From: Actinotalea alkalitolerans
GTDB lineage: Bacteria > Actinomycetota > Actinomycetes > Actinomycetales > Cellulomonadaceae
Reading direction: 5' to 3'
DNA length: 64,000 bases
Assembly: GCF_023369855.1 (NCBI RefSeq)
Contig: NZ_JAMBPP010000009.1
Location: 124,001-188,000, forward strand
Shown: positions 4,308 to 64,000 of the stretch, one piece after another
Numbering within the stretch: position 1 is the stretch's first letter
Layout: every line of letters starts with the position of its first letter
Notes under the pieces: model-generated
What the model was told of the DNA's origin: nothing
The model's database searches: none
The model's input: only the letters and a program-made list of their open reading frames with translations
Made by a program: the position numbers and the translations under genes

Positions 4308-4403
4308 CGGTCGAGGCGAGGCGTCCCGAGGCCCACGCCCCATCGCCCAGCGGTCACGTCCAGGTCTCCTCGCGACAGCCGTCGACTCACTAGGCTTCGA
4401 GAC

Positions 4404-4781
4404 ATGGGCAGCCCGCCGGTCGAGCCTGGCAACGATGGCGGAGCGGACGCGCCTCCCCTCGCCGGTCGAACCTTCGCCTCGGTCGAGACGCACGGACGGT
4501 CTCTGGTCGCAGGCAGTGCCGTGCGGCTCACCTTCGGGGTGGACGGCCTCGCCGCACAGGCCGGCTGCAACACGCTGTTCGGATCCGCCACCTGGACGAA
4601 CGGCACCCTCGTCGCCCCCGTGCTCGCCAGCACGATGATGGCCTGCTCCCCCGAGCTGATGACCCAGGACACCTGGCTCGCGGAACTGCTGCGGAGCAGC
4701 CCTGCCCTGGCCCTCGAGGGGCGCAGGCTGACCATCGGTGACAGCACGTCCGGTCTGGTGCTCGTCGAGACCGAGGCCTGA
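4404..4781 (+). CDS. META (HslJ-like) domain protein
   Basis: 125 residues. The segment from residue 20 on (LAGRTFASVETHG ... AGCNTLFGSATW ... STMMACSPELMTQD) carries the G-C-N and M-A-C signatures of META domains, including the two conserved cysteines of that family. In HslJ-type proteins the domain is periplasmic or on a lipoprotein, but no signal peptide or lipobox is visible here, so the protein may be cytoplasmic or exported by another route. A TAGGCT hexamer at 4391-4396 sits seven bases before the ATG, with no ribosome binding site, so a leaderless transcript is likely. Confidence 0.75.
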   Translation: MGSPPVEPGNDGGADAPPLAGRTFASVETHGRSLVAGSAVRLTFGVDGLAAQAGCNTLFGSATWTNGTLVAPVLASTMMACSPELMTQDTWLAELLRSSPALALEGRRLTIGDSTSGLVLVETEA

Positions 4782-4888
4782 CACGCCCGAGCGGGTGACC
4801 ACCCGAAGCGGGGGAAGCCCCAGGGGTGCCCGCAACAGGAGACTGGCCGTGACCTCGCAGGAGCGCGCCCGGCACGAGGAGGAAGCTG

Positions 4889-5290
4889 GTGGCCGGTTCA
4901 GGACCCGTCCGCCTGCGGCCGGTGCACGTCGTCGACGTCTTCGTGTACGTCACGGTCCTGAATCTCGCCATCGAGTACGTGCCGAGCGTGATCAGCGAGA
5001 CGTTCACCCTCTCGCTCCTCACTGCCGTGCTGCTCAAGCTGGCGCTGGAGGTGATCGTCTCCGTCAAGAAGCGAGTGGTGGGGCGGCTCCGCGCGGGCGG
5101 GACGGTCGCCCAGCGCCTCGTCGCGGTGGTCATGCTGGCCCTCGTCCTGCCCGGCTCGAAGCTGCTCGTGCTCTGGCTGGTCGACCTCGCGTTCGGGGAT
5201 GACGTCCGTCTCGGCGGGTTCGTCCCGGTGACGTTGCTGATCGCCGTGCTGCTGCTCTCCCGACTGGGGGTCCGTCGGATGCTCGGTTGA
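4889..5290 (+). CDS. Conserved integral membrane protein, unknown function
   Basis: 133 residues with about four hydrophobic segments: 12-28, 38-58, 78-99 and 111-126. Between segments two and three lies a basic cytoplasmic loop (VKKRVVGRLRAGG), which supports a cytoplasmic loop there. The GTG start is preceded by a GAGGAGGAAG ribosome binding site a few bases upstream. Nothing in the sequence identifies a transported substrate or enzymatic activity. A good rho-independent-type hairpin follows ten bases after the stop, so this gene ends its transcript. Confidence 0.65.
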   Translation: MAGSGPVRLRPVHVVDVFVYVTVLNLAIEYVPSVISETFTLSLLTAVLLKLALEVIVSVKKRVVGRLRAGGTVAQRLVAVVMLALVLPGSKLLVLWLVDLAFGDDVRLGGFVPVTLLIAVLLLSRLGVRRMLG

Positions 5291-5299
5291 CCTGAGCCG

Positions 5300-5320
5300 C
5301 CTCACCCTTGCCGGGTGAGG
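5300..5320 (+). terminator. Terminator hairpin after the 4889-5290 membrane protein
   Basis: CCTCACCC (5300-5307) pairs perfectly with GGGTGAGG (5313-5320) across a five-base loop, ten bases after the stop codon. No U tract follows, which is common in high-GC genomes. Confidence 0.6.
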
Positions 5321-5373
5321 TGTCCCGCCACCATCGTGCGCCACAGTTCGTGTGGAGCCCCTCGGAGGAAGCC

Positions 5374-5859
5374 ATGACGAACGCACCCGCTGCCGGCCCG
5401 GTCGAATGGGTGGCCCTCACCTTCCCCGGGCCGGCGCTGGACCCGAGGGTGGTGCCACCCCTCAGGCAGATCGTGGAACCGGGCACCGTGCGGCTCCTTG
5501 ACGCGGTGGTCCTGCACAACGACCAGGCGGGAGGAGTGACGGCGGGAGAGCTCCAGGACGAGCATGTCGAGGCCTTCGACTCCGTCGACGGCGAGGTCCT
5601 CGAGCTGCTCAGCGAGGACGACCTCGCCGCCGTCGCCGCTGCGCTGCGGCCGGACAGCACGACTCTCGTCCTGGTCTGGGAGAACCTCTGGGCGGCCACG
5701 TTCGGTGAGGCGATCCGACAGGCCGGAGGAGAGCTCGCGGCGTACGACCGGATCTCCCGTGACCGACTGGAGGCCGCGTTCGGACGACCGGGCATGGACG
5801 GCGACCCGGACACGCCCCCCGGCACGGGGCAACCGAGCAGCCAAGGAGGGGCGCCATGA
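5374..5859 (+). CDS. DUF6325-type protein
   Basis: 161 residues starting MTNAPAAGPVEWVALTFPG. The opening VEWVALTFPG, the P-L-R-x-I-V-E-x-G-T-V-R-L-L-D stretch near residues 30-45, and the acidic DGEVLELLSEDDLAAVAAAL segment followed by TTLVLVWENLWA match the actinobacterial DUF6325 family, whose function is not known. The start has GGAGGAAG six bases upstream, better than the in-frame upstream GTG at 5308, which lies within the terminator hairpin. The stop overlaps the next start as ATGA, so translation is probably coupled to the SHOCT protein. Family call is from memory of the pattern and moderately secure. Confidence 0.7.
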   Translation: MTNAPAAGPVEWVALTFPGPALDPRVVPPLRQIVEPGTVRLLDAVVLHNDQAGGVTAGELQDEHVEAFDSVDGEVLELLSEDDLAAVAAALRPDSTTLVLVWENLWAATFGEAIRQAGGELAAYDRISRDRLEAAFGRPGMDGDPDTPPGTGQPSSQGGAP

Positions 5860-6149
5860 GACGGGCAACGGGGCGTGGGCGGCGGGGTCCGAGCCTGTTG
5901 GGCACCGCCGCGCGGACCGCTGTCGTGGCGGGTACCGCGACGGCGGTGTCCGGCCGGGTCGCGGCGGCCCGGAGCCCACAACCGCCGACGGGGCCACCTC
6001 CTGGGCCGCCTCCCGCGATGGTGGCCGACGGCCCGATCGGCATCGACGAGCTGCACGCCCAGCTGACCAAGCTCGGCGAGCTGCGTTCGGCCGGCCTGCT
6101 CACCGACGCGGAGTTCGAAGCCCAGAAGGTCCGGCTGCTCACCTCATGA
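5856..6149 (+). CDS. SHOCT-domain protein coupled to DUF6325 gene
   Basis: 97 residues. The basic N-terminus (MRRATGRGRRG) is followed by a weakly hydrophobic Ala/Val segment (about residues 14-35), a Pro-rich linker, and a C-terminal SHOCT domain from residue 62: IDELHAQLTKLGELRSAGLL then TDAEFEAQKVRLL. SHOCT domains are short oligomerisation or membrane-association modules at protein ends. The gene overlaps the DUF6325 gene by four bases (ATGA), so the two products are likely made together and may act as partners. Confidence 0.75.
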   Translation: MRRATGRGRRGPSLLGTAARTAVVAGTATAVSGRVAAARSPQPPTGPPPGPPPAMVADGPIGIDELHAQLTKLGELRSAGLLTDAEFEAQKVRLLTS

Positions 6150-6193
6150 GTCGCCGCGGTCGGCTGCCTGTGCACCAGCGGCTGATCGGTCGG

Positions 6194-6631
6194 TCACTTG
6201 AGGGCCAGCTTGATCGTGGCGAGGATCATCGCCACCCCCAGCGCGGCCACCCCCACCGCGAGGGCGCGCGGCAGTGCGCTGCCGTTCGAACGCGCCTCCA
6301 TCGTCACCAGGACCCCGATGAACAGAGCGACGGCGACCCGGGCGGTCAGCACCTCCATGTGGACGGGGACGAGCACCACGGCCACCGACGCCACGATCGC
6401 CAGCACCCCGGCCATCACGACCTGGCTCATGAGCATCTCTCCCGGCGTGTGGTGCATGTTCGGGTCCCGGACGAGGAAGGCTGCCAGGGTGAGGGCGAAC
6501 CAGTGCGCCACCGCGAGCCCGACCGTGGTCCCCCAGATGACCAGCAGCAGCTCCGGCAGAGGTGGAGGGGCCTCGTCACGAGTGACGTTGAGCGCCACGA
6601 GCAACGTGAGCCCGAGGTAGAAGGCCATCAT
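6194..6631 (-). CDS. Four-helix integral membrane protein, unknown function
   Basis: 145 residues starting MMAFYLGLTLLVAL. Hydrophobic segments lie at about residues 3-14, 26-52, 70-95 and 98-140, with an ALPRALAVGVAALG motif in the last. A loop contains RDPNMHHTPGEM, whose paired histidines and acids are the only polar cluster of note. GGGAGG lies five bases upstream of the ATG at 6631. The frame stays open far upstream but that part overlaps the PAC2 gene on the other strand and is not coding. I do not recognise the family. Confidence 0.65.
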   Translation of the reverse strand: MMAFYLGLTLLVALNVTRDEAPPPLPELLLVIWGTTVGLAVAHWFALTLAAFLVRDPNMHHTPGEMLMSQVVMAGVLAIVASVAVVLVPVHMEVLTARVAVALFIGVLVTMEARSNGSALPRALAVGVAALGVAMILATIKLALK

Positions 6632-6946
6632 GTCGGCCTCCCGCCGCAGCGACAGGTCGCTGCGGGTGGCCCGCACATGAGTCCGCAGGCGCGCCCGCCG
6701 CTGCTGACCGGGTCGCGGCCCCCGGGTCACCGCAGACGTCCCTGCACGACACCGGCTCCTTCCTGCCCTGCGGCCCCAGCCTGGGGCCTGGTTCCCGCCG
6801 GCACCTCGCCCGATCCGGATGACCTGAGACCAGCTGGGCAACCCTCGACGTCGGCGCCGTCCGGGACGTCGGCACCGTCCAGGACGTCGGCACCGCCCAG
6901 GTCGGGCGGTACGTGGCCTCCGCAGGCCAGGACCTAGGCTGGGGTG
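6632..6946. other. 315-bp intergenic region with divergent promoters
   Basis: Separates the minus-strand membrane protein from the plus-strand PAC2 gene. I find no gene I trust in it. It holds three tandem copies of an 18-bp unit (6847-6900) and, at its right end, the TAGGCT promoter hexamer of the PAC2 gene (6935-6940). The left two thirds show nothing recognisable. Confidence 0.6.
6847..6900. repeat. Three tandem 18-bp repeats
   Basis: Units begin at 6847, 6865 and 6883. The second is GACGTCGGCACCGTCCAG; the others differ from it at two positions (unit 1) and one position (unit 3). The array ends 35 bases before the TAGGCT hexamer of the PAC2 gene, so it could hold repeated binding sites; it could equally be slippage-derived filler. 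Confidence 0.7.
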
Positions 6947-7822
6947 ATGAGCGACGCCCTCTCCGCCGCGGCTCCGCTGCACGGTCCTGTCCCGCTGCAC
7001 GGTCCGGTGATGCTTGCCGCCTTCGAGGGCTGGAACGATGCCGGGAGTGCCGCGACCCAGGCCTTGGCTCACCTGCACCTGATGTGGGGGGCCGAGCAGG
7101 TCGACGAGCTCGACCCCGAGGACTACCACGACTTCCAGGTCAACCGCCCGATGGTCGGCACCGACGAGAGCGGGAACCGGTCGATCACCTGGCCGACCAC
7201 CACGGTGGCTGTGGCCAGCGTGCCGGGAAACCCGGTCGTGCTCGTGCACGGGATCGAGCCGTCGATGCGGTGGCGCCGCTACTGCGCCGAGATCCTCGAC
7301 ATCGCCGAGCGGCTCGGCGTGCGGACCCTGATCACGCTCGGAGCCCTGCTGGCCGACGTGCCGCACACCCGTCCGATCCCGGTCACCACGACGGCTGAGG
7401 ACCCCGGGCTCCGGACGGCGCTGGGACTCGAGCCGAGCACCTACGAGGGGCCGACGGGGATCGTCGGGGTGCTCCAGCACGAGGCCTCGTTGCGCGGTAT
7501 CGACGCGCTGTCGGTGTGGAGCGCCGTGCCGCACTACGTGGCGCACCCACCCTCACCCAAGGCGACCCTCGCGATGCTCGTGCGGATCGAGGAGCTGGTC
7601 GGTTCACCGATCCCGGTCGGGGAGCTCCCCGAGGACGCCGAGGCGTGGCAGCACGGTGTCGACGAGCTGGCCTCGGAGGACGGCGAGATCGCCGAGTACG
7701 TCCAGCAGCTCGAGGAGGCCAAGGACACGGCCGAGCTCCCCGAGGCCACCGGCGAGGCGATCGCCCGAGAGTTCGAGCGCTACCTGCGGCGGCGCGACGG
7801 TGGGCCCGGACCGACCCCCTGA
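6947..7822 (+). CDS. PAC2-family (proteasome assembly chaperone-like) protein
   Basis: 291 residues. After a short repeat-like opening (APLHGPVPLHGPVMLAAF) the pattern FEGWNDAGSAATQAL, the HGIEPSMRWRRYCAEIL segment, TLITLGALLADVPHTRP, and the GPTGIVGVLQ ... HYVAHPPSPKATLAML stretch are typical of actinobacterial PAC2 proteins (PF09754). Mycobacterial members are implicated in proteasome-related or ATP-grasp-like roles, but none is visible here. The C-terminal 60 residues are acidic and helical. TAGGCT at 6935-6940 lies six bases before the ATG at 6947; a GTG at 6944 is in frame and adjacent. It converges on mshC. Confidence 0.85.
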   Translation: MSDALSAAAPLHGPVPLHGPVMLAAFEGWNDAGSAATQALAHLHLMWGAEQVDELDPEDYHDFQVNRPMVGTDESGNRSITWPTTTVAVASVPGNPVVLVHGIEPSMRWRRYCAEILDIAERLGVRTLITLGALLADVPHTRPIPVTTTAEDPGLRTALGLEPSTYEGPTGIVGVLQHEASLRGIDALSVWSAVPHYVAHPPSPKATLAMLVRIEELVGSPIPVGELPEDAEAWQHGVDELASEDGEIAEYVQQLEEAKDTAELPEATGEAIAREFERYLRRRDGGPGPTP

Positions 7823-7874
7823 GGAAGCACGGAGCTGGCGCGGGACCGCGGATCACAGGACGGCGGGGCCAGGG

Positions 7875-7913
7875 GGGTCAGTGCCTGATGCCGCGGGTCA
7901 GAGCCTGATGCCG
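7875..7913. repeat. Tandem near-duplicate at the 3' end of mshC
   Basis: GGGTCAGTGCCTGATGCCG (7875-7893) is repeated with one change at 7895-7913. The second copy holds the mshC stop and last codons (G-I-R-L-stop); the first copy just beyond the stop would read G-I-R-H-stop. It looks like a short tandem duplication of the gene end. Confidence 0.7.
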
Positions 7914-9157
7914 AGCAAGGCGTCGATCGCCCGCGACACCACGCCGGGGGCTCCTACGACGTCGCCCCCGAGACTGAGCGAGTCGTCGGCCCAGGTGTCC
8001 ACCGCGCGCACGGCCGCCGGTGCGTCGAGATCGTTCGCCAGCGCCCGGCGGATCGCCACGACCGTGCTCTCCGGGTCCGGTCCCCCGTTGCCCGAGACCG
8101 CGGCGCGCCAGCGCCCGAGCCGGGTCTGGGCCTCGGTCAGGACGGTGTCGTCCCAGTCCCAGTCCTCGCGGTAGTGGTGGGCGAGCACCGCCAGCCGGAT
8201 CGCCATCGGGTCGACGCCCTGCTCGCGCAGGGTCGAGACGATGACGAGGTTGCCCACGGACTTGCTCATCTTGGCCCCGTCGAGGCCGACCATCCCGGTG
8301 TGCATGTGGGCGCGGGCCCCGGAGCCACCCAGGGCCCGAGCGTGGGCGGTGCTCATCTCGTGGTGCGGGAAGCACAGGTCTCGGCCACCGCCCTGCACGT
8401 CGAAGTCGCCCCCGAGGGCCCCCTCGGCGATGATCGTGCACTCGATGTGCCAGCCCGGGCGTCCGGTCCCGAGCGGGCCGCCGTCCCAGGCCGGGTCACC
8501 GGGGCGTTCTCTGCGCCAGAGCGCCGGGTCGAGGGGGTCGCGCTTGCCAGGGCGCTCGGGGTCTCCCCCGCGCTCGGCGAAGAGCGCGACGGTCTGGTCG
8601 TGGTCGAGGCCCGCGACCGAGCCGAAGTGCGGGTCGACCGACACGTCCGCGTACACGTCACCCAGGTCGGGGCGGTCACCACCCGCACCCTCCTCGAGCT
8701 CGACCCGGTATGCGAGACCTCGGTCGAGCAGCCGGGCGACCGCCTCGGCCACCCGCGGGATCGTCTCGACCGCCCCGAGGTACACGTGAGGTGGCAGCAC
8801 CCCCAGTGCGGTCATGTCCTCGGCGAAGAGGGCGGTCTGGTCGGTCGCGAGACGCTCCCAGCTCACGCCCGTCGCCGTGGCCCGCTCCAGGAGCGGGTCG
8901 TCCACATCGGTGACGTTCGAGACGAACGTCACGTCCTGGCCGGCATCCAGCCAGGCACGGTGCAGCAGGTCGAAGGCGATGTACGTCGCCGCGTGACCCA
9001 GGTGCGTCGCGTCGTAGGGGGTGATCCCGCACACGTAGAGGGAGGAATGGGGTCCCCTCGAGGCGTCGACCAGCTCGCCGGTCGTGCTGTCGAGCACCCG
9101 CACCTGACCACCACGGCCGGGGATCGACGGGATCTGAGGGGCGGGCCAGGTCTGCAC
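7898..9157 (-). CDS. mshC: Cysteine:1-D-myo-inosityl 2-amino-2-deoxy-glucopyranoside ligase (mycothiol)
   Basis: MshC joins cysteine to glucosaminyl-inositol using ATP, the penultimate step of mycothiol synthesis in the cytoplasm. The 419-residue protein is a class-I aminoacyl-tRNA-synthetase relative: CGITPYD with zinc-ligand C43, the HLGH nucleotide motif (52-55), WHIEC (C240), FPHHEMS (263-269) and the KMSKS loop (296-300). Length matches the family. The start is GTG at 9157, with TAGGCT six bases upstream and no Shine-Dalgarno, so leaderless. The uppP gene lies just upstream on the same strand, a common actinobacterial neighbour. CysS would be very similar, but the lead-in and neighbourhood favour MshC. 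Confidence 0.9.
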
Positions 9158-9212
9158 GAGCGCAGCCTAACCGGACTCGGGCGACAGGCAGGTCGGCCGC
9201 CCGCGCCACGGG

Positions 9213-10088
9213 TCAGCCGACGGTCCCGCCCAACGGCTCGAGCACGCCGACGCCCAGCAGCACCACGATCACCCCCGCGAGGACGATCCGGTAGACCACG
9301 AACGGCAGGTAGCTGCGCGTGGTGACGATCCGTAGGAACCCGATGATGACGACGTACCCCATCGCGAACGCCACCACGGTCGCCACGAAGGTCGCCAGCA
9401 CGGTCGGGGTGCCCGCGACCCCGAACCCGCCCAGGTTCTTGGCCAGCTGGTAGAACCCCGACCCGTAGACCGCGGGCAGGGCCAGCAGGAACGAGTACCG
9501 CGCCGCGGCCTCCCGCGTGTAGCCCATGAGCAGCCCGATGGTGATCGTCCCACCCGACCGCGAGACACCGGGGACCAGGGCCATGGCCTGGCCCAGTCCG
9601 AACAGCACCGCGTGCCGGGCGGTGATCTGGTCCAGGGTGCGCTGCTTGGCCCCACGGCGGTCGGCGAAGCCCAGCAGCAGGCCGAACAGCGCCAGGGTCA
9701 GGGCGATCAGGTAGAGGTTGCGGAACCGGCCCTCGATCGACTCCTGGAAGAGCAGGCCCAGGACGACGATCGGCACCGAGCCCAGGGCGATCCACCACGC
9801 CATCCGGGCATCGGGGTCCCCGACACCCATACGGTCACGCAACGCCGGGCCGGCGTCACCGCGCAGCGCCCGCCACCAGGCCACGCAGATCCGCACGATG
9901 TCGCGCCGGAAGTAGATCAGGACGGCGGTCTCGGTCCCGATCTGCGTGATCGCGGTGAAGGCCGCCCCCGGATCGGCACGGGACGGCAGGAGCTCGCCGA
10001 CGATCCGTAGGTGAGCGCTCGAGGAGATCGGCAGGAACTCGGTGAAACCCTGGACCAGACCGAGCACGACTGCTTCCCACCACGTCAT
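9213..10088 (-). CDS. uppP: Undecaprenyl-diphosphate phosphatase
   Basis: UppP (BacA) removes a phosphate from undecaprenyl diphosphate at the membrane, recycling the lipid carrier of peptidoglycan synthesis; extra copies give bacitracin tolerance. The 291 residues contain the family signatures [20 protein letters not shown] followed by SSAH near the N-terminus (the E of the (E/Q)XXXE-type motif and the S-S-A-H box) and [10 protein letters not shown] in the middle, plus eight or so hydrophobic segments. The ATG at 10088 was chosen over longer frames because it gives the canonical N-terminus and has TAGCCT eight bases upstream. It is divergent from an aldo/keto reductase gene 43 bp away. Confidence 0.93.
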
Positions 10089-10131
10089 GGCGAGCAAGGC
10101 TAGCCGCCCGCGACCGGTAGCCTGCACAGCC
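10089..10131. promoter_or_regulatory. Divergent leaderless promoters for uppP and the aldo/keto reductase
   Basis: This 43-bp gap carries two TAGCCT hexamers facing outwards: 10097-10102 on the minus strand and 10118-10123 on the plus strand, each exactly eight bases from its start codon. The two promoters must overlap, so their activities may be linked. Confidence 0.6.
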
Positions 10132-11094
10132 ATGGAGGAGCGACTGCTCGGCAGGACGGGCCTACGGGTCTCAGCCCTGGCACTGGGCACGATGACCTGG
10201 AGCCGGGACACCGACGAGCACGAGGCCGCCGAGCAGCTGCGGGACTTCGTCGACGCCGGCGGCACCCTGCTGGACACCGCGGCCTCCTACGCCGACGGCG
10301 AGGCCGAGGTGCTGATCGGCGGGCTGCTCCGCTCGACCGTGCACCGCGACGACGTGCTGCTGTGCACCAAGGCGGGGGTGCGGCAGACCGCCAGCGGTGG
10401 CGTCGTGGACGCCTCGCGAGGGGCTCTGCTGAACTCGCTGGACGCCTCGCTGCGCCGCCTGGGCACCGACCACGTGGACCTCTGGCTGGTCCAGGCCCCC
10501 GACCAGCGCACCCCGCTCGAGGAGACCGTCGGGGCGATGCGGCACGCGCTGGACAGCGGCCGGGCACGGTACGTCGGGCTCTCCAACCACCCCGGCTGGC
10601 AGACCGCCCGCGCGGCGGGCCTCCTGGAGCCCGCGAACCGTCTCGCAGCGGTCGAGGTCGAGTACTCGCTGCTGCAACGCGGTGTCGAGCGTGAGGTCGT
10701 GCCGGCCTGCGCCGATCTCGGCACAGGGCTGCTCGCGTGGTCGCCGCTGGGGCGCGGCGTGCTGACCGGCAAGTACCGCCGCTCGGTCCCGGCCGACTCG
10801 CGTGCTGCGTCGGCCCACCTGGCGGGGTTCGTCGAGCCGTACCTGGGCCCCGACGCCGCTCCGGTGGTCGAGGCCCTTGCGACCGCCGCCGAGGGCCTGG
10901 GACGTGCGCCGCTCGAGGTGGCCCTGGCATGGGTGCTCGGCCGTCCGCAGGTCAGCGCGGCCGTGGTCGGTGCACGCACCGCGGTCCAGCTGCGCGGCGC
11001 CCTGGGGGCACTGGACCTGAGGATCCCGCCGACCCTGGGTGCGGCCCTGGACGAGGTGAGCGCCCCGGCGACGGGGTACCCCGAGCGACGCTGA
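10132..11094 (+). CDS. Aldo/keto reductase family protein with altered catalytic histidine
   Basis: 320 residues, cytoplasmic NADPH-dependent reductase fold. The TIM-barrel opening [17 protein letters not shown], the DTAASYADG segment (catalytic Asp/Tyr), the TK lysine in LLCTKAG and the YVGLSNH cofactor-side motif are all present. The position normally holding the catalytic histidine (D-L-Y-x-x-H-x-x-D) reads DLWLVQAPD, with Gln in place of His. Substrate unknown; related proteins act on shaker-channel-beta-like or sugar aldehyde substrates. Start ATG at 10132 with TAGCCT eight bases upstream. A hairpin follows three bases after the stop. Confidence 0.85.
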
Positions 11095-11096
11095 GC

Positions 11097-11112
11097 CCCT
11101 CGGCCGCGAGGG
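11097..11112 (+). terminator. Short hairpin after the aldo/keto reductase
   Basis: CCCTCG (11097-11102) pairs with CGAGGG (11107-11112) across a GCCG loop, directly after the stop. Short stem, no T tract. Confidence 0.4.
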
Positions 11113-11472: not shown

Positions 11473-11546
11473 GCGATGACCGTAGCGCCGCACCGTGCAC
11501 AATGGCACACGAATCCAGACCACCCGAGCGACCACCGAGGAGCCGG

Positions 11547-11783: not shown

Positions 11784-11811
11784 GCGCCTCCGCCCAGCGG
11801 CTCCTGAGCCG

Positions 11812-13161: not shown

Positions 13162-13221
13162 GTCGGCCACGGTACCTGCCGACTCCGGCGGTCCCGGCAC
13201 CGCGGTCCCGGCGCCCTCGGC

Positions 13222-15911: not shown

Positions 15912-15973
15912 CGCGACACCGTAGGTCCCCCGTCCGCCGAGGTGCAGCCGATTTCCGACCTCGGGCCGCGATC

Positions 15974-19353: not shown

Positions 19354-19524
19354 GAGAGAGGGCCCTTCCCGATGGGCGGCGAGGTCGGCCGGACCGGCCA
19401 GGTCGTCACGCCGCGTCCGACAGGTGTCTGCATCCCAGGGTAGGCGCAGAACGCCCCTCCAGCCCTCCGAGGATGGAGGGACCGTGTGAAGACCTCGTGG
19501 CGACCGGCGCCTACGATCTCCCGG

Positions 19525-23971: not shown

Positions 23972-24013
23972 GCTCTCACGGTAGCGACCGGTCGAACGGG
24001 CCGGCCCCCTGGC

Positions 24014-38752: not shown

Positions 38753-38766
38753 CCGCGCAGCCTACA

Positions 38767-40706: not shown

Positions 40707-41492
40707 TCAGGTGCGCGACCGGGCGGTCCACCGGTGGTCGTGCCGCTCGACCACGAGGTCCACCCCGAAGGTCTGGGACAGGTTCTGCGGCGTCAACGTC
40801 TCCTCGAGCGGACCGGCGGCATGGACCGCTCCGTCGCGCAGCAGCAGGGCATGCGTGAAGCCCGCGGGGATCTCCTCGACGTGGTGGGTCACCAGGACCA
40901 GCACGGGCGAGCGAGGGTCCGCGGCGATCTCGGAGAGCGCGGCGACGAGCTCCTCGCGGCCGCCGAGGTCAAGACCCGCGGCCGGCTCGTCGAGCAGCAG
41001 CAGCTCAGGATCGGTCATCAAGGACCGGGCGATCTGGGTGCGCTTGCGCTCGCCCTCGCTCAAGGTGCCGAACCTGCGCCCGGCCAGGTGCCCGACACCG
41101 AAGACGTCCAGCAGCGCCCGGGCTCGCTCGTGGTCCAGGGCCTCGTACTGCTCGCGCCAGCGGCCGGTCATCCCGTAGGCAGCGGTCAGGACCACGTCCA
41201 CGACCGTCTCGGAGCCGGCGATGCGGTCGGCCAGGGCCGCGGAGGTCACCCCGATCCGCGGCCTCAGCTCGAAGACGTCCACCGCACCGAGCCGGGAGCC
41301 GAGGACGTCCGCCGTCCCCGAGCTGGGGTGCATCGCCCCCGAGGCGATCTGCAGCAGCGTCGTCTTCCCGGCTCCGTTGCGGCCCAGGACGACCCAGCGG
41401 TCGCCGTCGTCGACCGTCCACGTGACGCGGTCGAGGATCGTCTTGGGTCCCCTGCGCAGGCTCACGTCCTGCAGGTCCAGCACCGTGCTCAT
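40707..41492 (-). CDS. Stand-alone ABC ATP-binding protein (YlmA/ModF-like)
   Basis: 261 residues, one ATPase domain: Walker A GRNGAGKTT, signature LSEGERKRTQIARSL, Walker B LLLLDEPAAGLD and H-loop LVTHH. The D-V-S-L-R-R-G-P-K-T-I-L-D-R-V-T-W-T-V opening and the signature starting LSEGE resemble YlmA/ModF-type ATPases. No membrane subunit lies nearby, so it may pair with a distant permease or act without one. Start at 41492 has TAGGGT eight bases upstream (41501-41506), no Shine-Dalgarno. Confidence 0.88.
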   Translation of the reverse strand: MSTVLDLQDVSLRRGPKTILDRVTWTVDDGDRWVVLGRNGAGKTTLLQIASGAMHPSSGTADVLGSRLGAVDVFELRPRIGVTSAALADRIAGSETVVDVVLTAAYGMTGRWREQYEALDHERARALLDVFGVGHLAGRRFGTLSEGERKRTQIARSLMTDPELLLLDEPAAGLDLGGREELVAALSEIAADPRSPVLVLVTHHVEEIPAGFTHALLLRDGAVHAAGPLEETLTPQNLSQTFGVDLVVERHDHRWTARSRT

Positions 41493-41589
41493 GAGGATCG
41501 ACCCTAACGTGCCTGCCTGCTCGCGCCTCACCGGAGCGCCGGACCGGCACCGCGGCCCGGTCGTCGCGGTGAGCACGTAGGTTGGTCGG

Positions 41590-42408
41590 ATGGATCGCGC
41601 CGAGCTGCTGCTGACCCCGGCCCGCTCCGTGCTGCTCGCCCTGTGGGGCCAGCACCTCGGCTCGGGGGCAGTCCCGCTGCGGTCCGCGATCGACGCCGTC
41701 GAGGGCGACGACGAGCCGCACGTGGTGGACGCCGCCTCGCTCGGCCCAGACGGGCCGACCACGCTTCCGGACCTGCTCGCCGACTGGGCCGAGGGCAGCC
41801 GGACCCTCGCGGCCGCCCTGCCCTCGCCGGGAGACCTCGCGGGTGTCCCTGCGGCGGTGAGCGGAGCCGCGGCCGATGCCGGGGAGTGCGTCCTGGCGCG
41901 GACCGCGAACGGGACCTACGCCGCCGTCCCGGTGATCGAGGAGTTCGGCAGCGTCTACGAGACCGGCCACCTCGTCACCTGGACGGTGCACCGCGTCCCG
42001 GAGTGGCAGACCGTGCTGATGGGCGCTGTGGGGTCGCTGGCCGAGGCCGAGCGCGACCTGCGGACCGCCCTGCTGGCCTCGACCGACGCGTTGGCCTCGC
42101 TCGACGTCGCCCGGTGGCGTCCCGATGCGGCCGAGGCCATCGCGACCCTCCGGTCGCAGGACCCTGCCGCGGGTCTCCTCCCCCCGACCCTGGACCCCCG
42201 TCGGGTCAGGGTGCTGACCCTCGCCCTGCGACTGCGTGGGATCGTCGCGCTGGCCACGGCCGACGACGGCGGCGCCGTCAACCTGTGGCAGGCGGACCAG
42301 CGGTCCACGGCCCTGCGCGAGATCGACCGGGCGGCCCGCCGCGCGCTCTCCTCGGCGACGCTCGTGACCGACGACCACGCTCGGGGCACCGCGCCGCTGG
42401 GCGGATGA
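41590..42408 (+). CDS. Conserved actinobacterial protein, unknown function
   Basis: 272 residues starting MDRAELLLTPARSVLLALWG. The protein is mostly helical with a central strand-rich part (CVLARTANGTYAAVPVIEEF ... HLVTWTVHRVPEWQTVLMG). No catalytic motif, membrane segment or signal peptide is visible, and I do not recognise a family. Position next to glgA on the opposite strand is typical of this actinobacterial neighbourhood. TAGGTT (41578-41583) sits six bases before the ATG, so it is leaderless. It is divergent from the YlmA-like gene. Confidence 0.7.
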   Translation: MDRAELLLTPARSVLLALWGQHLGSGAVPLRSAIDAVEGDDEPHVVDAASLGPDGPTTLPDLLADWAEGSRTLAAALPSPGDLAGVPAAVSGAAADAGECVLARTANGTYAAVPVIEEFGSVYETGHLVTWTVHRVPEWQTVLMGAVGSLAEAERDLRTALLASTDALASLDVARWRPDAAEAIATLRSQDPAAGLLPPTLDPRRVRVLTLALRLRGIVALATADDGGAVNLWQADQRSTALREIDRAARRALSSATLVTDDHARGTAPLGG

Positions 42409-43653: not shown

Positions 43654-43721
43654 AGCGACACGCTAGCGCTTTTCCCGGTTCGCGTCTGGCCGAGAGGCGA
43701 GCGCGGGCCTAGGGTCGGGGC
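43654..43721. promoter_or_regulatory. Divergent leaderless promoters of glgA and glgC
   Basis: In 68 bases two outward-facing hexamers are each six bases from their starts: TAGCGT for glgA (43660-43665, minus strand) and TAGGGT for glgC (43710-43715). The arrangement could coordinate donor-sugar synthesis and use. Confidence 0.6.
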
Positions 43722-44963: not shown

Positions 44964-45020
44964 GTCGTCGACGGCTGAGCGGGGCCACCTGGGAGGACCG
45001 CCCGACGCTACCCTGCACGG

Positions 45021-47101: not shown

Positions 47102-48333
<1,232 letters not shown>

Positions 48334-53580: not shown

Positions 53581-53639
53581 GGTACCCGGGTCCTCACGCT
53601 CGACGCGCCGGGGCGACGGGTCCGCCCTAGGTTGAGCCC

Positions 53640-54879: not shown

Positions 54880-57485
<2,606 letters not shown>

Positions 57486-57494
57486 CGGTTCTCC

Positions 57495-57833: not shown

Positions 57834-59146
57834 CCGGTCACCGTCGCGACGGTGTCGAGCTCGCTCATGCTCCGCTCGAGCTCGGCCTCGATAGCGCCCA
57901 GCAGGCGCTCCTCGATCGCGGGGACACCGATCTGCTGGATCAGCTCGGCGAAGAACCCGCGCACGACCAGGCGGCGCGCGTCGGTCTCGGGGATGCCCCG
58001 CGAGCGCAGGTAGAACAGCTGCTCGTCGTCGAAGCGCCCGGTCGCCGACGCGTGACCGGCGCCCTCGATGAGCCCCGTCTCGATCTCCAGGTTCGGCACC
58101 GAGTCGGCACGGGCACCGTCGGTCAGCACGAGGTTGCGGTTGAGCTCATAGGTGTCGGTGCCCTCGGCGGCAGCACGGATCAGGACGTCACCGACCCAGA
58201 CCGTGTGCGCCCCGGCCCCCTGCAGCGCACCCTTGTACGTCACGCGCGAGCGGCAGCTCGGAACCACGTGGTCGACGAAGAGGCGGTGCTCCTGGTGCTG
58301 GTCGGCGTCGGCGAAGTACAGACCGAGCATCTCGACCTCACCCCCTTCGCCGGTGAACTCGGCATCAGGGGTGACCCGGACCACGTCCCCACCCAGGGTC
58401 ACGACGATGTGCTTGACCACCGCGTCGCGGCCGATGCGGATGCGGTGCGCAGCCGCGTGCACCGTGCCCGCGTCCCAGTCGTGGATCGAGACGACCGTCA
58501 GGTGCGCGCCGTCCTCGGCCAGGATCTCGACCGTCTCGGAGAGGGACGCCAGTCCCAGGTGGTCCACCACGACCACCGCTTCGCTGAGCGGCTTGGCGTG
58601 GATCACCAGGTGGGAGGCCGACGGCTCGGGTGCCGAGCCGCTGCCCGGGGCCAGGCCCGAGGCGATGACTCCCTCGACCCGCACGCTGGTCGCGGCAGAG
58701 GCCACGGCCTGCGCCGGGATCGTCACGACGGTCGCCTCCCGGAACGACTGCCAGGCGGCTGCGGAGGTGCGGTCCCCGGGACGACCCGCGACACCGACCC
58801 GGGAGTCGTCACGACCGACGATCTCGACCTCGACCTCGGGCGGGTTCACCACGGTGGTCCGCGTCGAGGTGCCTCGCAGACCCTCGCCCGACGCGTCGAA
58901 GAGCGGCGCGAGCCGGGCTACGGGCGAGAAACGCCACTCCTCCTCGCGACCGTCGGGGACCGTGAAGTCCTCCAGGTCGTACGAGGTCTTCCGTGAGGCG
59001 CGCGAGCTGTCGGGCGTGCCACCGCGACCGTGCGTGTGGGCACCGTCGGTGACCGCCCGGCTGTGGTCGGTGGACAGATCTGTGGACATGTCGGTGGGCA
59101 TAGCCTCTTCTGGTGTGGTGGTGTCGGTCGAGGGGATCGAGGTCAT
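57830..59146 (-). CDS. sufD: SufD scaffold protein
   Basis: 438 residues. The C-terminal half is the SufB/D right-handed helix: HIVVTLGGDVVRVTPDAEFT, LFVDHVVPSCRSRVTYKGAL, GAGHASATGRFDDEQLFYLR and SRGIPETDARRLVVRGFFAE. SufD has no cluster-binding cysteines of its own and works with SufB and SufC. The N-terminus is low-complexity with several Met-rich starts (ATG 59146, plus internal ATGs); the first overlaps the sufB stop in TGATG. Function is certain, exact start less so. Confidence 0.94.
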   Translation of the reverse strand: MTSIPSTDTTTPEEAMPTDMSTDLSTDHSRAVTDGAHTHGRGGTPDSSRASRKTSYDLEDFTVPDGREEEWRFSPVARLAPLFDASGEGLRGTSTRTTVVNPPEVEVEIVGRDDSRVGVAGRPGDRTSAAAWQSFREATVVTIPAQAVASAATSVRVEGVIASGLAPGSGSAPEPSASHLVIHAKPLSEAVVVVDHLGLASLSETVEILAEDGAHLTVVSIHDWDAGTVHAAAHRIRIGRDAVVKHIVVTLGGDVVRVTPDAEFTGEGGEVEMLGLYFADADQHQEHRLFVDHVVPSCRSRVTYKGALQGAGAHTVWVGDVLIRAAAEGTDTYELNRNLVLTDGARADSVPNLEIETGLIEGAGHASATGRFDDEQLFYLRSRGIPETDARRLVVRGFFAELIQQIGVPAIEERLLGAIEAELERSMSELDTVATVTG

Positions 59147-60576
59147 CAGCCGACGGAGCCTTCCATCTGCAGCTCGATCAGGCGGTTGAGCTCCAGGGCG
59201 TACTCCATCGGCAGCTCGCGGGCGATGGGCTCGACGAAGCCACGCACGATCATCGCCATCGCCTCGGTCTCGGCCATCCCGCGCGACATCAGGTAGAAGA
59301 GCTGCTCCTCGCTGACCCGGGAGACCGTGGCCTCATGACCCATCGACACGTCGTCCTCACGGACGTCGACGTAGGGGTAGGTGTCGGACCGCGAGATCTG
59401 GTCCACGAGCAGCGCGTCGCACAGCACGTTCGACGTGGACCCCTCGGCACCCTCGAGGACCTGCACCAGGCCACGGTAGGACGTGCGTCCGCCACCGCGG
59501 GCCACCGACTTGGAGATGATCGACGACGACGTGCGGGGCGCCGCGTGCACCATCTTCGCGCCGGCGTCCTGGTGCTGCCCCGCGCCCGCGAAGGCGATCG
59601 AGAGCGTCTCGCCCTTGGCGTGCTCCCCCATGAGGTAGATCGCCGGGTACTTCATGGTGACCTTGGAGCCGATGTTGCCGTCGACCCACTCCATCGTCGC
59701 GCCCTCAGCGGCCGTAGCCCTCTTGGTCACGAGGTTGTACACGTTGTTCGACCAGTTCTGGATCGTCGTGTACCGCACCCGGGCGTTCTTCTTGACGATG
59801 ATCTCGACGACCGCGGAGTGCAGCGAGTCGCTCGAGTAGATCGGGGCGGTGCAGCCCTCGACGTAGTGCACGTAGGAGCCCTCGTCGGCGATGATCAACG
59901 TGCGCTCGAACTGGCCCATGTTCTCGGTGTTGATCCGGAAGTAGGCCTGGAGCGGGATCTCCACGTGCACGCCCGGCGGCACGTAGATGAACGACCCGCC
60001 CGACCACACCGCGGTGTTGAGCGCGGCGAACTTGTTGTCGCCCGGGGGGATCACCGAGCCGAAGTACTGCTCGAAGATCTCGGGGTACTCGCGCAGACCC
60101 GTGTCGGTGTCCACGAAGATGACGCCCTGCTCCTCGAGGCTCTCCTGGATCTGGTGGTAGACGACCTCGGACTCGTACTGGGCCGCCACCCCCGCGACCA
60201 GACGCTGCTTCTCGGCCTCGGGGATCCCGAGGCGGTCGTAGGTGTTCTTGATGTCCTCGGGCAGGTCCTCCCAGCTGGTGGCCTGCTTCTCGGTCGACCG
60301 GACGAAGTACTTGATGTTGTCGAAGTCGATCCCGCCGAGGTCCGAGCCCCAGTTCGGCATGGGCTTCTTCTCGAACAGCCGCAGCGACTTCAGCCGGGTC
60401 TTGAGCATCCACTCGGGCTCGCTCTTGAGCGCCGAGATGTTCCGGACGACGGCCTCGGAGAGCCCCCGCTGCGCGGACATGCCCGCGGCGTCGGAGTCGT
60501 GCCAGCCGTAGCCGTAGCTGCCGATCGAGTTGATGATCTCCTCGTCGGTGGTCATCGGTTCGGTAGGTGCGCTCAT
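59146..60576 (-). CDS. sufB: SufB scaffold protein
   Basis: 476 residues, core of the Fe-S cluster scaffold. Conserved features are the [11 protein letters not shown] start, the [20 protein letters not shown] region, [40 protein letters not shown] and the C-terminal [20 protein letters not shown]. The cluster/sulfur cysteine near the C-terminus is in NVLCDALL. Unlike the mycobacterial gene it carries no intein. AAGGAA precedes the ATG at 60576. It overlaps the sufR stop by four bases, so sufR and the structural genes share one transcript. Confidence 0.96.
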
Positions 60577-61319
60577 CGTGTTCCTTCCACGGTCGCCGCA
60601 GGTGCGGGACGGTCGGATGCTGCTCGTACGGAGGGTGAGGTCGTGGGGACGTGGGTGGTGCAGACGTGACCGCCCGAGGCCAGCGTCGAGAGGCGTTGGA
60701 CGTGGACGCCCAGGAGCCGCGAGAACAGCCGAGCCTCGGCCTCGCAGAGCTGGGGGAACTCGGCAGCGACGTCGCGCACGGGGCAGTGACCCTGGCACAG
60801 CTGGACGGCACGCCCCCCCGGCATCGGGCGGGCCGAGGACGCGTAGCCGTCGCCGGCGAGGGCCGCAGCGAGCGCCTCGGCCCTCGCACCCACGTCGCTG
60901 CCCGCCGCGGCGACCGTGTCGGCGTGCCGGAGCTCGAGGTCTTGCACCCGGCGCACGGCGAAGGCCTCGACGGCCTCGTCCCCGCCGACCTGGGCGAGGA
61001 AGCGCAGCGCCTGGGTGGCGAGGTCGGAGTAGGCGCTGCTGAGCGCGGTCTGACCCTTGTCGGTCGCGACGTAGCGTCGGGCGGGTCGCCCACGCCGGGG
61101 GTGGCCGGGCAACGGCACGTCGTGGACCGCGACCTGCCCCGAGTCCTCGAGGGCGGCGACGTGACGCCGGACCCCCGCGGCGGTGAGGTCGAGGTCACGC
61201 GCGAGCTCGACCACCGAGACCGGGCCGACCTCGACGACCAGCCGGAGGATGCGTTGACGCGTGGTGGACTCCACGGCGGCCGGATCGGCTGCGAGCGGTG
61301 CAGGCACGGCTGTCAGCAT
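60573..61319 (-). CDS. sufR: SufR-type Fe-S-sensing transcriptional repressor
   Basis: 248 residues. A winged helix ([20 protein letters not shown] ... [20 protein letters not shown]) precedes a helical sensor domain with cysteines C175, C179 (LCQGHC), C192 (PQLC) and C220 (GHVC). The C-x3-C plus further Cys pattern matches SufR of Mycobacterium and cyanobacteria, a 4Fe-4S repressor that turns off suf when clusters are plentiful. GGAGG is six bases before the ATG at 61319. A CAAC-N6-GTTG site (61393-61406) lies at its promoter, so self-regulation is likely. Confidence 0.93.
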
Positions 61320-61384
61320 GGTCCACCTCCGATGAGCTCGTCGTGGCGCGGCCACGGTGCGTCCCGGGGCCTGCTCGACCCCGC

Positions 61385-61408
61385 GATATAGACAACATCC
61401 TTGTTGTC
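61385..61408 (-). promoter_or_regulatory. suf promoter with SufR-type operator
   Basis: GACAACATCCTTGTTGTC (61391-61408) is a seven-plus-seven perfect inverted repeat and contains CAAC-N6-GTTG, the cyanobacterial SufR recognition pattern. Immediately downstream on the minus strand is TATATC (61385-61390), a good -10, so the operator fills the spacer. A further CAACAA lies at 61423-61428. Confidence 0.85.
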
Positions 61409-61488
61409 GAATTGCTTCCCTGCAACAAAGGTCTGCCTCACCAGGGCGGAGAGGGGGACGCCGTCGGGTCCGCCTAGACTTCGGCGTC

Positions 61489-62502
61489 GTGCCCGACTCC
61501 TCGCCCACCGGCCCGCTGCGCGCGGGCCCCGCGTCCTCTGCTGGCCCTGCGCCCGGGCACGCCGTCGTCGTCGAGGGACTGGTCAAGCGCTACCGAGGCA
61601 CCGAAGCCGTCAGCGGCCTGGACCTGGTGGCCCCCACCGGCGCCATCACGGCCGTGCTCGGACCCAACGGCGCCGGCAAGACCAGCACCATCGAGTGCTG
61701 CGAGGGTCTGCGTCGCCCCGACGGGGGCACCGTCCGGGTGCTCGGGCTCGACCCCGTGGCCGACGCACGCCGGCTGCGCCCACGCGTCGGCGCGATGCTC
61801 CAGGACGGCGGTCTGCCCTCGACGGTCCCGGCCGCCGAGGTCCTCCGTCACGTCGCCACGATGTACGCCCACCCGCGTGACCTCGGTGAGCTCTCGGAAC
61901 GCCTCGGGCTGCACGCCTTCGCACGCACCCAGGTCCGGCGCCTGTCCGGCGGCCAGCGCCAACGCCTCGCCCTGGCCACCGCGGTCGTCGGAGGTCCCGA
62001 GGTGGTCTTCCTCGACGAGCCCAGCGCGGGGCTGGATCCCCAGGCCCGGCTCGCGGTGTGGCAGCTCGTCCGCGAGCTGCGCGACCAGGGCACCACGGTG
62101 ATCATCACGACGCACCAGATGTCCGAGGCCGAGCAGCTCGCCGAGCACGTCGTGATCGTCGACCACGGGCGTGCGATCGCCGCAGGCAGCCCGGCGGAGC
62201 TCGTCGGCACCGACGACGTCGTGCGGCTGGCCGTACGACCCTGGTCCACCGCGGCGCGCCCTGTCGCGCCGGCCGAGCAGGCCACAGCCCTGGCCGAGGC
62301 CCTGGGCTCCGCCACCGGCGCCCCCCACCGGGTGACCGTCGACGGGGAGACCCTCGAGGTGCACACCGCGGCCGACCCGGCCCTGCTGCACGCCGTCGCG
62401 GGGTGGGCGGCCCACGCCGGGTTGCTCGTGACCTCGCTCACCACCGGTCGCCGAACCCTCGAGGACGTCTTCCTCGACCTCACCGGACGGACCCTACGAT
62501 GA
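61489..62502 (+). CDS. DrrA-type ABC exporter ATPase
   Basis: 337 residues, ATPase of a two-gene exporter. Walker A GPNGAGKTS, signature [11 protein letters not shown], Walker B VVFLDEPSAGLD, H-loop TTHQ. The C-terminal 110 residues after the ATPase domain end EDVFLDLTGRTLR, the usual DrrA-like finish. The GTG at 61489 has TAGACT eight bases upstream (61475-61480). It overlaps its permease by four bases. The divergent suf operon and downstream ctaA match the mycobacterial neighbourhood Rv1456c-Rv1460. Confidence 0.92.
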   Translation: MPDSSPTGPLRAGPASSAGPAPGHAVVVEGLVKRYRGTEAVSGLDLVAPTGAITAVLGPNGAGKTSTIECCEGLRRPDGGTVRVLGLDPVADARRLRPRVGAMLQDGGLPSTVPAAEVLRHVATMYAHPRDLGELSERLGLHAFARTQVRRLSGGQRQRLALATAVVGGPEVVFLDEPSAGLDPQARLAVWQLVRELRDQGTTVIITTHQMSEAEQLAEHVVIVDHGRAIAAGSPAELVGTDDVVRLAVRPWSTAARPVAPAEQATALAEALGSATGAPHRVTVDGETLEVHTAADPALLHAVAGWAAHAGLLVTSLTTGRRTLEDVFLDLTGRTLR

Positions 62503-63245
62503 CGCGTGCTGCGGCCCCGCTGCCCCGCAGGGTGGCGGCCCAGGCCGCCTTCGAGATGAGGACCGTGCTGCGCAACGGCGAGCAGCTGGTGATCACCCTG
62601 GTGCTGCCGGTCCTGCTGCTGCTCGTGCTGACCCGCACGAGCTTCATCGACCTCGGGACCGACGACCGGATCGGTCTGGTCGCCCCGGGCATCCTCGCGC
62701 TCGCCGTGATGTCCACCGCCTTCACCTCGCAGGCCATCGCCACCGGCTTCGACCGGCGCAACGGGGTGCTGCGCCTGCTCGCGACCACCCCGCTGGGTCG
62801 CGGCGGGCTGCTGGCCGGCAAGTGCCTGGGGGTGCTGGCCCTCGAGGTCCTGCAGATCACCGTGCTCGCGGGGGTCGCCGTGGCCATGGGCTGGAGGCCC
62901 GACCCTGCCGGGCTCGCACCGGCCGCGTTGATCCTGCTGCTCGGGACCGCGGCGTTCACCTCCTTCGCGCTGCTGCTGGCCGGGACGTTGCGGGCCGAGG
63001 CCGTCCTTGCCGTGGCCAACCTCGTCTGGGTGCTCCTGCTGGCGGCCGGCGGGGTGCTGCTGCCCGTGGACCTCCTGCCCGTCCCCGCCGGGCACGTCGC
63101 CCTCCTGCTGCCCTCGGGGGCGCTGGGCGAGGCGCTGCGTTCGACGCTCACCGGAGGTGGGCTGCCGATCTCGTCGGTCGTGGTCCTCGGGGCGTGGACC
63201 GCGGTGCTCGGGACCGCGACGGCACGCCTCTTCCGCTGGAGCTGA
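62499..63245 (+). CDS. DrrB-type ABC exporter permease
   Basis: 248 residues with six hydrophobic segments, including LVITLVLPVLLLLVLTRTSF, TSQAIATGFDRRNGVLRLLA and ILLLGTAAFTSFALLLAGTL. The E-x-x-x-x-T-R-N-G-E-Q/F-D-R-R-N-G pattern and the ABC-2 topology fit DrrB-like permeases. It is coupled to the ATPase gene by an ATGA overlap. Substrate not known; in mycobacteria the equivalent genes sit next to cytochrome assembly genes and suf. Confidence 0.9.
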   Translation: MTRAAAPLPRRVAAQAAFEMRTVLRNGEQLVITLVLPVLLLLVLTRTSFIDLGTDDRIGLVAPGILALAVMSTAFTSQAIATGFDRRNGVLRLLATTPLGRGGLLAGKCLGVLALEVLQITVLAGVAVAMGWRPDPAGLAPAALILLLGTAAFTSFALLLAGTLRAEAVLAVANLVWVLLLAAGGVLLPVDLLPVPAGHVALLLPSGALGEALRSTLTGGGLPISSVVVLGAWTAVLGTATARLFRWS

Positions 63246-63317
63246 GCAGCCGGTCGAGGACCGCTCCGAGCGTCGGGCGCGTCCCGAGCGCGGCGCGAGG
63301 CCAAGTACCGTGGTGCC

Positions 63318-64000
63318 GTGAGCAGCACGACCTCCGCCCCCGCGTCCGACAGCCCCGGTACCACCACGCCACGAGAGGCGGCCGGTCGTCCGGCAGGGCC
63401 CAGCGACCCGTCCACCCGCAGGTGGGTCCCCTCGCCGGCCTGGGCGCGCCGCATCCTGCTGGCCAACCTGGTCGCCCAGGTGCTGATCGTGGTCACCGGC
63501 GGCGCCGTGCGGCTCACGGGCTCGGGGCTGGGCTGCTCGACCTGGCCGCAGTGCGAGCCCGGCCAGTTCGCACCGGTCCTGCACCAGGCCACCTCGTGGC
63601 ACCCCTACATCGAGTTCGGCAACCGCACCCTGGCCGGCGTCCTGGCCGTCCTGGCCATCGCGACCGCCTGGGTCGTCTGGCGCCAGCGTCACCGTGCCCT
63701 GCCGTACCGGGTGCTCGGCCTGGTCCCGCTCCTGGGGGTCCTCGCGCAGTCCGTCGTCGGCGGCATCACCGTCCTGGTCGAGCTGCACCCCGCGGTCGTG
63801 GGCGGGCACTTCCTCGCCTCGATGGTCCTGATCGCCGTGTCGACCGCACTGGTGGTGCGTCACCGGGAGGGCGACGCCCCGCCGGTCCCCCTGGTCGAAC
63901 CCGCCGTCGCGGTGCTCGCCCGAGCACTGGTGCCGGTGGCTGTCGTCGTCCTGGTCCTCGGCGTCGTGGTGACCGGGTCAGGCCCGCACTCGGGTGACGC
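63318..64000 (+). CDS. ctaA: Haem A synthase CtaA/COX15, 3' end outside window
   Basis: The first 227 codons of haem A synthase, which oxidises haem O to haem A for cytochrome c oxidase. VLIVVTGGAVRLTGSGLGCS then TWPQC is the CtaA signature, with EFGNRTLAG carrying a haem-ligand region, and several helices follow (VLGLVPLLGVLAQSVVGGIT ... HPAVVGGHFLASMVLIAVS). GTG start with TACCGT (63306-63311) six bases upstream, so leaderless. The gene runs off the right edge in frame. It complements the SURF1 gene earlier in the window. Confidence 0.93.
   Translation, partial: MSSTTSAPASDSPGTTTPREAAGRPAGPSDPSTRRWVPSPAWARRILLANLVAQVLIVVTGGAVRLTGSGLGCSTWPQCEPGQFAPVLHQATSWHPYIEFGNRTLAGVLAVLAIATAWVVWRQRHRALPYRVLGLVPLLGVLAQSVVGGITVLVELHPAVVGGHFLASMVLIAVSTALVVRHREGDAPPVPLVEPAVAVLARALVPVAVVVLVLGVVVTGSGPHSGD

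Follow-up and report, generated by a model that had tools for sequence, protein, structure and literature searches.

The DNA analysed here (the window, a stretch of 64,000 nucleotides, or 64 kb, at positions 124,001 to 188,000 of contig NZ_JAMBPP010000009.1, assembly GCF_023369855.1) comes from Actinotalea alkalitolerans, a member of the Cellulomonadaceae, and contains 67 genes according to a call made from codon usage, which together cover 92% of its length. In 20 of these genes, lying on both strands, a TAnnnT hexamer ends 6 to 8 nucleotides (nt) before an ATG or GTG start codon, the spacing being 6 nt in 13 genes, 7 nt in three and 8 nt in four. From this arrangement, followed through a sample of the rest of the genome and through relatives, it appears that about one gene in seven begins its mRNA exactly at the first codon of its protein. 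At least twenty genes of this kind had been proposed in a previous sequence-only reading of the window, and all 20 noted hexamers have been verified at their coordinates and strands. They are given below with the fraction of ortholog rows (aligned loci from relatives, defined later) that keep the hexamer, together with a palindrome found beside one of them.

4391..4396, plus strand: TAGGCT, 7 nt before ATG 4404 of a META-domain protein; 0/2 compared, the weakest case
6935..6940, plus strand: TAGGCT, 6 nt before ATG 6947 of a PAC2-family protein; 52/53 ortholog rows
9164..9169, minus strand: TAGGCT, 6 nt before GTG 9157 of mshC; 60/60 ortholog rows
10097..10102, minus strand: TAGCCT, 8 nt before ATG 10088 of uppP; 49/52 ortholog rows
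10118..10123, plus strand: TAGCCT, 8 nt before ATG 10132 of an aldo-keto reductase; 51/51 ortholog rows
11479..11484, minus strand: TACGGT, 6 nt before ATG 11472 of a 99-residue acidic protein; 49/49 ortholog rows
13169..13174, minus strand: TACCGT, 7 nt before ATG 13161 of an M20 peptidase; 42/42 ortholog rows
15918..15923, minus strand: TACGGT, 6 nt before ATG 15911 of a GNAT acetyltransferase; 4/7 ortholog rows
19512..19517, plus strand: TACGAT, 7 nt before GTG 19525 of a TauE/SafE exporter; 10/11 ortholog rows
23978..23983, minus strand: TACCGT, 6 nt before GTG 23971 of a DHDPS-family protein; no ortholog to compare
38759..38764, minus strand: TAGGCT, 6 nt before GTG 38752 of a TetR-family regulator; 4/4 relatives at >=45% identity
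38769..38784, minus strand: perfect palindrome GAGTGAGTGCTCACTC, just before the hexamer of this regulator gene
41501..41506, minus strand: TAGGGT, 8 nt before ATG 41492 of an ABC transporter ATPase; 12/12 ortholog rows
41578..41583, plus strand: TAGGTT, 6 nt before ATG 41590 of a protein without NCBIfam or Pfam match; 10/12 ortholog rows
43660..43665, minus strand: TAGCGT, 6 nt before GTG 43653 of glgA; 18/18 ortholog rows
43710..43715, plus strand: TAGGGT, 6 nt before ATG 43722 of glgC; 18/18 ortholog rows
45009..45014, plus strand: TACCCT, 6 nt before GTG 45021 of serB; 11/11 ortholog rows
47960..47965, plus strand: TAGACT, 6 nt before ATG 47972 of a DUF3099 protein; 13/13 ortholog rows
53628..53633, plus strand: TAGGTT, 6 nt before ATG 53640 of a YpfJ-type zinc metallopeptidase; 7/7 ortholog rows
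61475..61480, plus strand: TAGACT, 8 nt before GTG 61489 of a DrrA-like ABC ATPase; 12/12 ortholog rows
63306..63311, plus strand: TACCGT, 6 nt before GTG 63318 of a CtaA/Cox15 homologue extending past the window end; 7/8 ortholog rows

The names that had been assigned to some of these genes (mshC, uppP, glgA, glgC, tetR for the TetR-family regulator and ctaA for the CtaA/Cox15 homologue) are correct by family matches, and the 99-residue acidic protein, like the protein at 41590, has no match in NCBIfam or Pfam. Among named relatives, the window mshC is closest to the proteins of Actinotalea and Cellulomonas species, with most of which it shares 77-82% identity. A second META gene (G000:C35:120983-121309, locus L230) is located about 7 kb from that of the window (4404-4781), outside the window and in the opposite orientation; this paralog is 52% identical and lacks a hexamer in the vicinity of the aligned start.

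When in-frame starts were scanned automatically after the gene call, the same 20 of 67 genes were recovered and none besides, and a retrained codon model again gave 20/67. The start indicated by the hexamer is the top choice of the codon model in 12 of the 20 genes and lies 3-129 nt away from that choice in the remaining eight, in keeping with the former claim that the hexamer decides many start codons. In addition, NCBIfam profiles begin within 5 residues of the hexamer-given starts of mshC, uppP, glgA, glgC and the YpfJ-type peptidase, which supports these five starts independently of the hexamer. The practical consequence is that the hexamer fixes start codons, and that the promoter would tell where many proteins of A. 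alkalitolerans really begin.

Taking into account that the starts of the sequence-only reading were chosen by eye, and that several starts per gene are possible, it could be argued that the hexamers are chance matches picked afterwards by means of convenient start codons. The controls leave this explanation with practically no probability. In the window, shifting the spacing to 12-14, 15-17, 18-20 or 21-23 nt gave 0, 4, 1 and 0 genes, respectively, and the pattern in its seven other A/T versions gave 0-2 genes each, compared with 20 for TAnnnT at its proper place. The same was observed in a sample of 40 stretches of 20 kb (800 kb), taken from contigs of the same genome other than that of the window, where 99 of 695 genes (14%) are hexamer-led when any plausible start is allowed, the controls reaching 6-11 (shifted spacings) and 6-19 (other A/T versions); about 1% corresponds to background. 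Moreover, starts picked blind to the hexamer give the same spike, with 45, 14 and 6 of 675 genes at spacings 6, 7 and 8 and only 0-4 at any other spacing from 0 to 30. In the whole genome of 4.37 Mb, TAnnnT-N6-ATG is found 223 times and the reversed pattern 71 times. Thus, the hexamer is commoner than its controls, a check that had been suggested together with the initial proposal. The increase from 65/675 hexamer-blind starts to 99/695 once other plausible starts are admitted, with 6-11 of these 99 at chance level, indicates that perhaps a quarter of the hexamer-led starts would be misplaced by codon usage alone.

The share of hexamer-led genes in the window, which had been described as striking, is real (20/67, 30%), but it is about twice that of the genome as estimated from the sample (14%; Fisher p = 0.002), and the window has to be regarded as a local high. 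Such a rich region is not surprising, since hexamer-led genes are unevenly spread along the chromosome, being clustered over the 20-kb stretches of the sample (chi-square per degree of freedom 1.74, p = 0.003). The spike of hexamer-blind starts at spacings 6, 7 and 8 was repeated in three other genomes, one of which, G024, has none at spacing 8, and the raw TAnnnT-N6-ATG count is at least 1.3-fold over the reversed control in 36 of 39 genomes (A. alkalitolerans and 38 relatives), so that a special status for this species was rejected. A control with Escherichia coli, comprising 42 annotated starts of one 50-kb stretch after leaving out two cut genes, one 45-nt gene and one non-coding RNA, gave 0, 2 and 0 genes at spacings 6, 7 and 8, too few to weigh much.

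Judged from gene order only, the hexamer is a feature of the first genes of transcription units: it precedes none of the 19 window genes that closely trail a co-directional gene and 4 of 193 such genes in the sample, which bears out the previous remark that genes within operons are not led by it. All hexamer-led start codons are ATG or GTG. No TTG start at spacings of 4-11 nt was found among the plausible starts of the sample and the window, a test that is weak because the other sample genes use TTG in only 11 of 577 cases.

Conservation was examined in 442 ortholog rows, related by descent, all of which have an aligned N-terminus and none of which is a duplicate; a comparison was possible for 19 of the 20 genes. 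Rows were dropped when identity fell below a limit set by gene (45-60%), when the alignment started after residue 25 (65 for tetR), when the locus had less than 160 nt upstream, or when the same sequence was repeated. Of the 442 rows, 429 retain the hexamer with an in-frame ATG or GTG 6-8 nt after it, compared with 9, 11 and 13 at the control spacings 12-14, 15-17 and 18-20. The 60/60 rows of mshC span Mycobacteriaceae and Brachybacterium at 48-54% identity, one of them (L096) being doubtful, as its possibly spurious match precedes the aligned start by 8 codons. In some genes the spacing itself is conserved across genera (8 nt in 45 of 49 uppP rows, 6 nt in 49 of 60 mshC rows), and in the aldo-keto reductase it varies, with 9, 15 and 27 rows at 6, 7 and 8 nt. 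Three of the 52 uppP rows miss the hexamer, the three missing rows of the GNAT gene (15911) read CA for TA, and the YpfJ-type peptidase reaches 11/11 with a looser N-terminal limit. The ABC ATPase at 41492 discriminates poorly, because 8 of its 12 rows likewise have a match at the control spacing 15-17.

In several genes the start position is displaced from one relative to another, and the hexamer is displaced with it. Thus, relative to the window protein, 16 distinct hexamer-given start offsets were found for PAC2 (52/53 rows), 14 for M20 (42/42), 10 for DUF3099 (13/13), 6 for SerB (11/11) and 8 for the DrrA-like ATPase (12/12), spanning ranges such as -11 to +14 codons, and up to 33 codons for the N-terminus overall. 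It has to be noted that the ortholog scan seeks starts 6-8 nt past a hexamer, so that the spacing is imposed by the search and the evidence consists in its success in nearly every row; the same scan at the three control spacings finds a start in 0-2 rows for these five genes.

Such a displacement is well illustrated by tetR. The codon model favours ATG 38623 for this gene and its TetR_N domain is matched only from residue 61 on, for which reason its hexamer-given start was suspected to be a false positive. This suspicion was rejected, taking into account that the four relatives at >=45% identity, whose proteins start 21-33 codons further in, keep the same order as the window, that is, a GAGTGAG-type element, the hexamer, and a GTG at 6 or 8 nt; this comparison left out a genus relative with 44.9% identity and two relatives with 36-37%. 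The element resembling GAGTGAGTGCTCACTC is a perfect palindrome in three of these relatives and an imperfect one in L197, and the palindrome of the window is likely a candidate autoregulatory operator of tetR.

These results also bear on the possibility that the hexamers are the ordinary -10 elements of leadered genes, translated from a downstream codon and leaving the hexamer-adjacent codon unused. The domain position and codon preference in tetR would fit this explanation, as would the eight window starts that are not the first choice of the model. Nevertheless, an in-frame ATG or GTG would hardly be kept at 6-8 nt throughout the ortholog rows if it were unused, and in the tetR relatives the operator-like element, hexamer and GTG are found together at a shifted place; this explanation is considered very improbable. 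If start positions are tied to the promoter, they may show how protein N-termini evolve. No study of N-terminal change tied to leaderless promoters was found in a narrow literature search, and the observation is not claimed as unpublished.

The genes with spacings of 7 and 8 nt make it possible to ask where transcription starts. RNA polymerase prefers a purine as initiating base (85% of start sites in Mycobacterium tuberculosis, as reported in PMC3898074), and initiation on the start codon therefore predicts that no purine will be present at the bases that have to be skipped. Counting from the hexamer, a purine stands at position 7 in 7 of 66 spacing-7 genes from four genomes, and in spacing-8 genes positions 7 and 8 are purines in 1/20 each, whereas the -1 base of other genes is a purine in 505 of 1143 cases. 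Tested against other genes, p is 2.7e-5 in A. alkalitolerans, 3.2e-4 in G017, 0.017 in G024, where there is no significant contrast to spacing-6 genes (p = 0.33), and 0.058 in G020, where the test does not discriminate because spacing-6 genes are also purine-poor at -1 (1/17). In the ortholog rows a purine occupies position 7 in 6/89 (spacing 7) and 8/97 (spacing 8) and position 8 in 0/97 (spacing 8), whereas position 6 is a purine in 52 of the 89 spacing-7 rows. Of the seven window genes with a spacing of 7 or 8 nt, six conform to the rule; the exception is the TauE exporter (19525), whose G at position 7 would allow a 1-nt leader.

Purines are thus nearly absent from the skipped bases, which makes the A or G of the start codon the first purine to occur 7 nt or more past the hexamer. 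This pyrimidine rule is regarded as good, though indirect, evidence that the RNA begins on the start codon. It also provides a means to separate a zero-length from a short leader when nothing but sequence is at hand. The alternative, in which the same promoters would start the RNA 1-5 nt before the start codon, giving a very short leader, could account for the TauE gene and the minority of rows with a purine at position 7, and in M. tuberculosis an ATG or GTG (RTG) is reported at +2 to +5 in 558 cases versus 1098 at +1 (PMC4633059). However, purines are kept out of exactly those bases that would leave a leader of 1-2 nt, and near-leaderless transcription is improbable.

Considering jointly the fixed spacing, the first-gene position, the exclusive use of ATG and GTG, the conservation and the exclusion of purines, it is very probable that the TAnnnT-led genes are leaderless, their transcription starting with the first base (A or G) of the start codon. 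The initial proposal, which placed it at or within one or two bases of this codon, is thus supported. From the elements, their spacing and conservation, and the pyrimidine rule, all of them directly observed, we infer the transcription start, the sigma factor and the leaderless translation as follows. The hexamers would be the -10 elements of vegetative (SigA/HrdB-type) promoters, from which RNA polymerase would take the first purine at least 7 nt downstream; in genes with spacing 6 this purine already belongs to the start codon, and at spacings 7 and 8 the intervening pyrimidines would be skipped, placing the RNA start again on the start codon. The resulting mRNA would have neither leader nor Shine-Dalgarno sequence, and the ribosome would recognise its 5'-terminal AUG or GUG. 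A broader proposal, to which we give a fair probability, is that in the Cellulomonadaceae selection holds the leader at exactly zero and not merely short, that RNA polymerase chooses the start codon, that protein N-termini lengthen or shorten as the promoter moves, and that the promoter, rather than the N-terminal sequence, is the conserved landmark of the protein start.

Several observations, in addition to the behaviour of G020, weigh against leaderless genes with SigA/HrdB-type promoters as the explanation. No clear -35 element was found in 215 hexamer-led genes, exact TTGAC at spacers of 15-20 nt being present in 4; a TTG ending 20 or 21 nt before the hexamer occurs 10 times, versus about one per position elsewhere, and a conserved -35 as a second signature was dropped, as nothing beyond this weak excess was seen. 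A Shine-Dalgarno core is absent from the 20 window genes and from the hexamer-led genes of four genomes (0/98, 0/28, 0/35 and 0/54; 172/577, 34/148, 34/134 and 67/284 in their other genes), as had been noted for most cases, but this absence is partly forced, because the hexamer fills the slot of that sequence, and it was set aside as independent evidence. The -1 base of spacing-6 ortholog rows is somewhat purine-poor (76/243), which points to a mild general preference for pyrimidines before the start. The pattern excess is only 1.18-fold in G022, which belongs to the same family, 1.14-fold in G027 and 1.06-fold in G033. Finally, the hexamer of the META gene (4404) was found in neither of the two sequences compared (one genus relative and the paralog of the same genome), and for the DHDPS-family gene (23971) a search of 18 genus relatives at E 1e-70 gave no ortholog with which a comparison could be made.

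The phenomenon is already known for Actinomycetota, as had been pointed out for the window, and the present finding is a sound observation of a known pattern. Zheng et al. (2011) reported "TA-led" genes, with TAnnnT about 10 bp upstream of the start as in the genes described here, in 86 of 89 genomes of the high-GC Actinobacteria and in about 20% of genes (PMC3160421). The proportions found here are about 14% of sampled genes and 30% in the window, and, unlike what is described in that report, gene-by-gene conservation and the pyrimidine rule were tested. In M. tuberculosis, Cortes et al. (2013) found that 73% of primary start sites have a TANNNT centred 7-12 bp upstream, that C is the commonest base at -1, and that about a quarter of the genes with a primary start site have leaderless transcripts, beginning with ATG or GTG; these features are shared by the genes studied here, where they are deduced and not mapped by 5'-end sequencing as in that work, and the lack of a visible -35 consensus also agrees with M. 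tuberculosis, for which no -35 motif is reported (PMC3898074). Shell et al. (2015) reported that in mycobacteria a 5'-end ATG or GTG is necessary and sufficient, no other codon serving, and that RTG is enriched at +1 over +2 to +5, similar to the zero-leader preference proposed here, although their evidence comes from reporters and ribosome profiling (PMC4633059). In Corynebacterium glutamicum, a member of another family whose 5' ends have been mapped, the same architecture is described, with 33% of mRNAs leaderless, all starting with AUG or GUG, a TAnnnT -10 element in 97% of starts and a weak -35 (PMC3890552). More generally, 21.6% of bacterial species are predicted by the GeneMarkS-2 authors, as cited in PMC9581028, to have leaderless transcription.

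Literature searches on Cellulomonas and Actinotalea brought up no work on leaderless transcripts. The present analysis contributes the family-wide conservation, the displacement of starts together with their promoters and the pyrimidine rule, and adds a family to the known pattern; the last of these three, tested in this work, is not claimed as unpublished, since the literature search was narrow.

Some additional sites lie beside the hexamers. The divergent genes uppP and aldo-keto reductase (10088-10132) carry TAGCCT on both strands, back to back and 15 bp apart, which implies that two polymerases probably cannot bind at once; this gap ranges from -2 to 182 bp in 49 relatives. A box, GTGCCATTGTGC, is found on the minus strand at 11497-11508, 12 nt upstream of the hexamer of the 99-residue acidic protein. 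Of 49 relatives, 41, from several genera, retain its core, CATTGTGC, and 22 retain the full 12-mer. CATTGTGC was rejected as a regulon motif, as only one site precedes a TAnnnT in the genome of A. alkalitolerans, and the box is perhaps a gene-specific operator or an unusual upstream promoter element. The divergent genes glgA and glgC, both with hexamers, leave an inter-hexamer gap of 44 bp (43666-43709), which measures 44-46 bp in 15 of 17 genus relatives. This gap contains a CGTCTGG/CCAGACG box (43683-43689), present in 10 of the 17, which suggests a putative site for a shared regulator.

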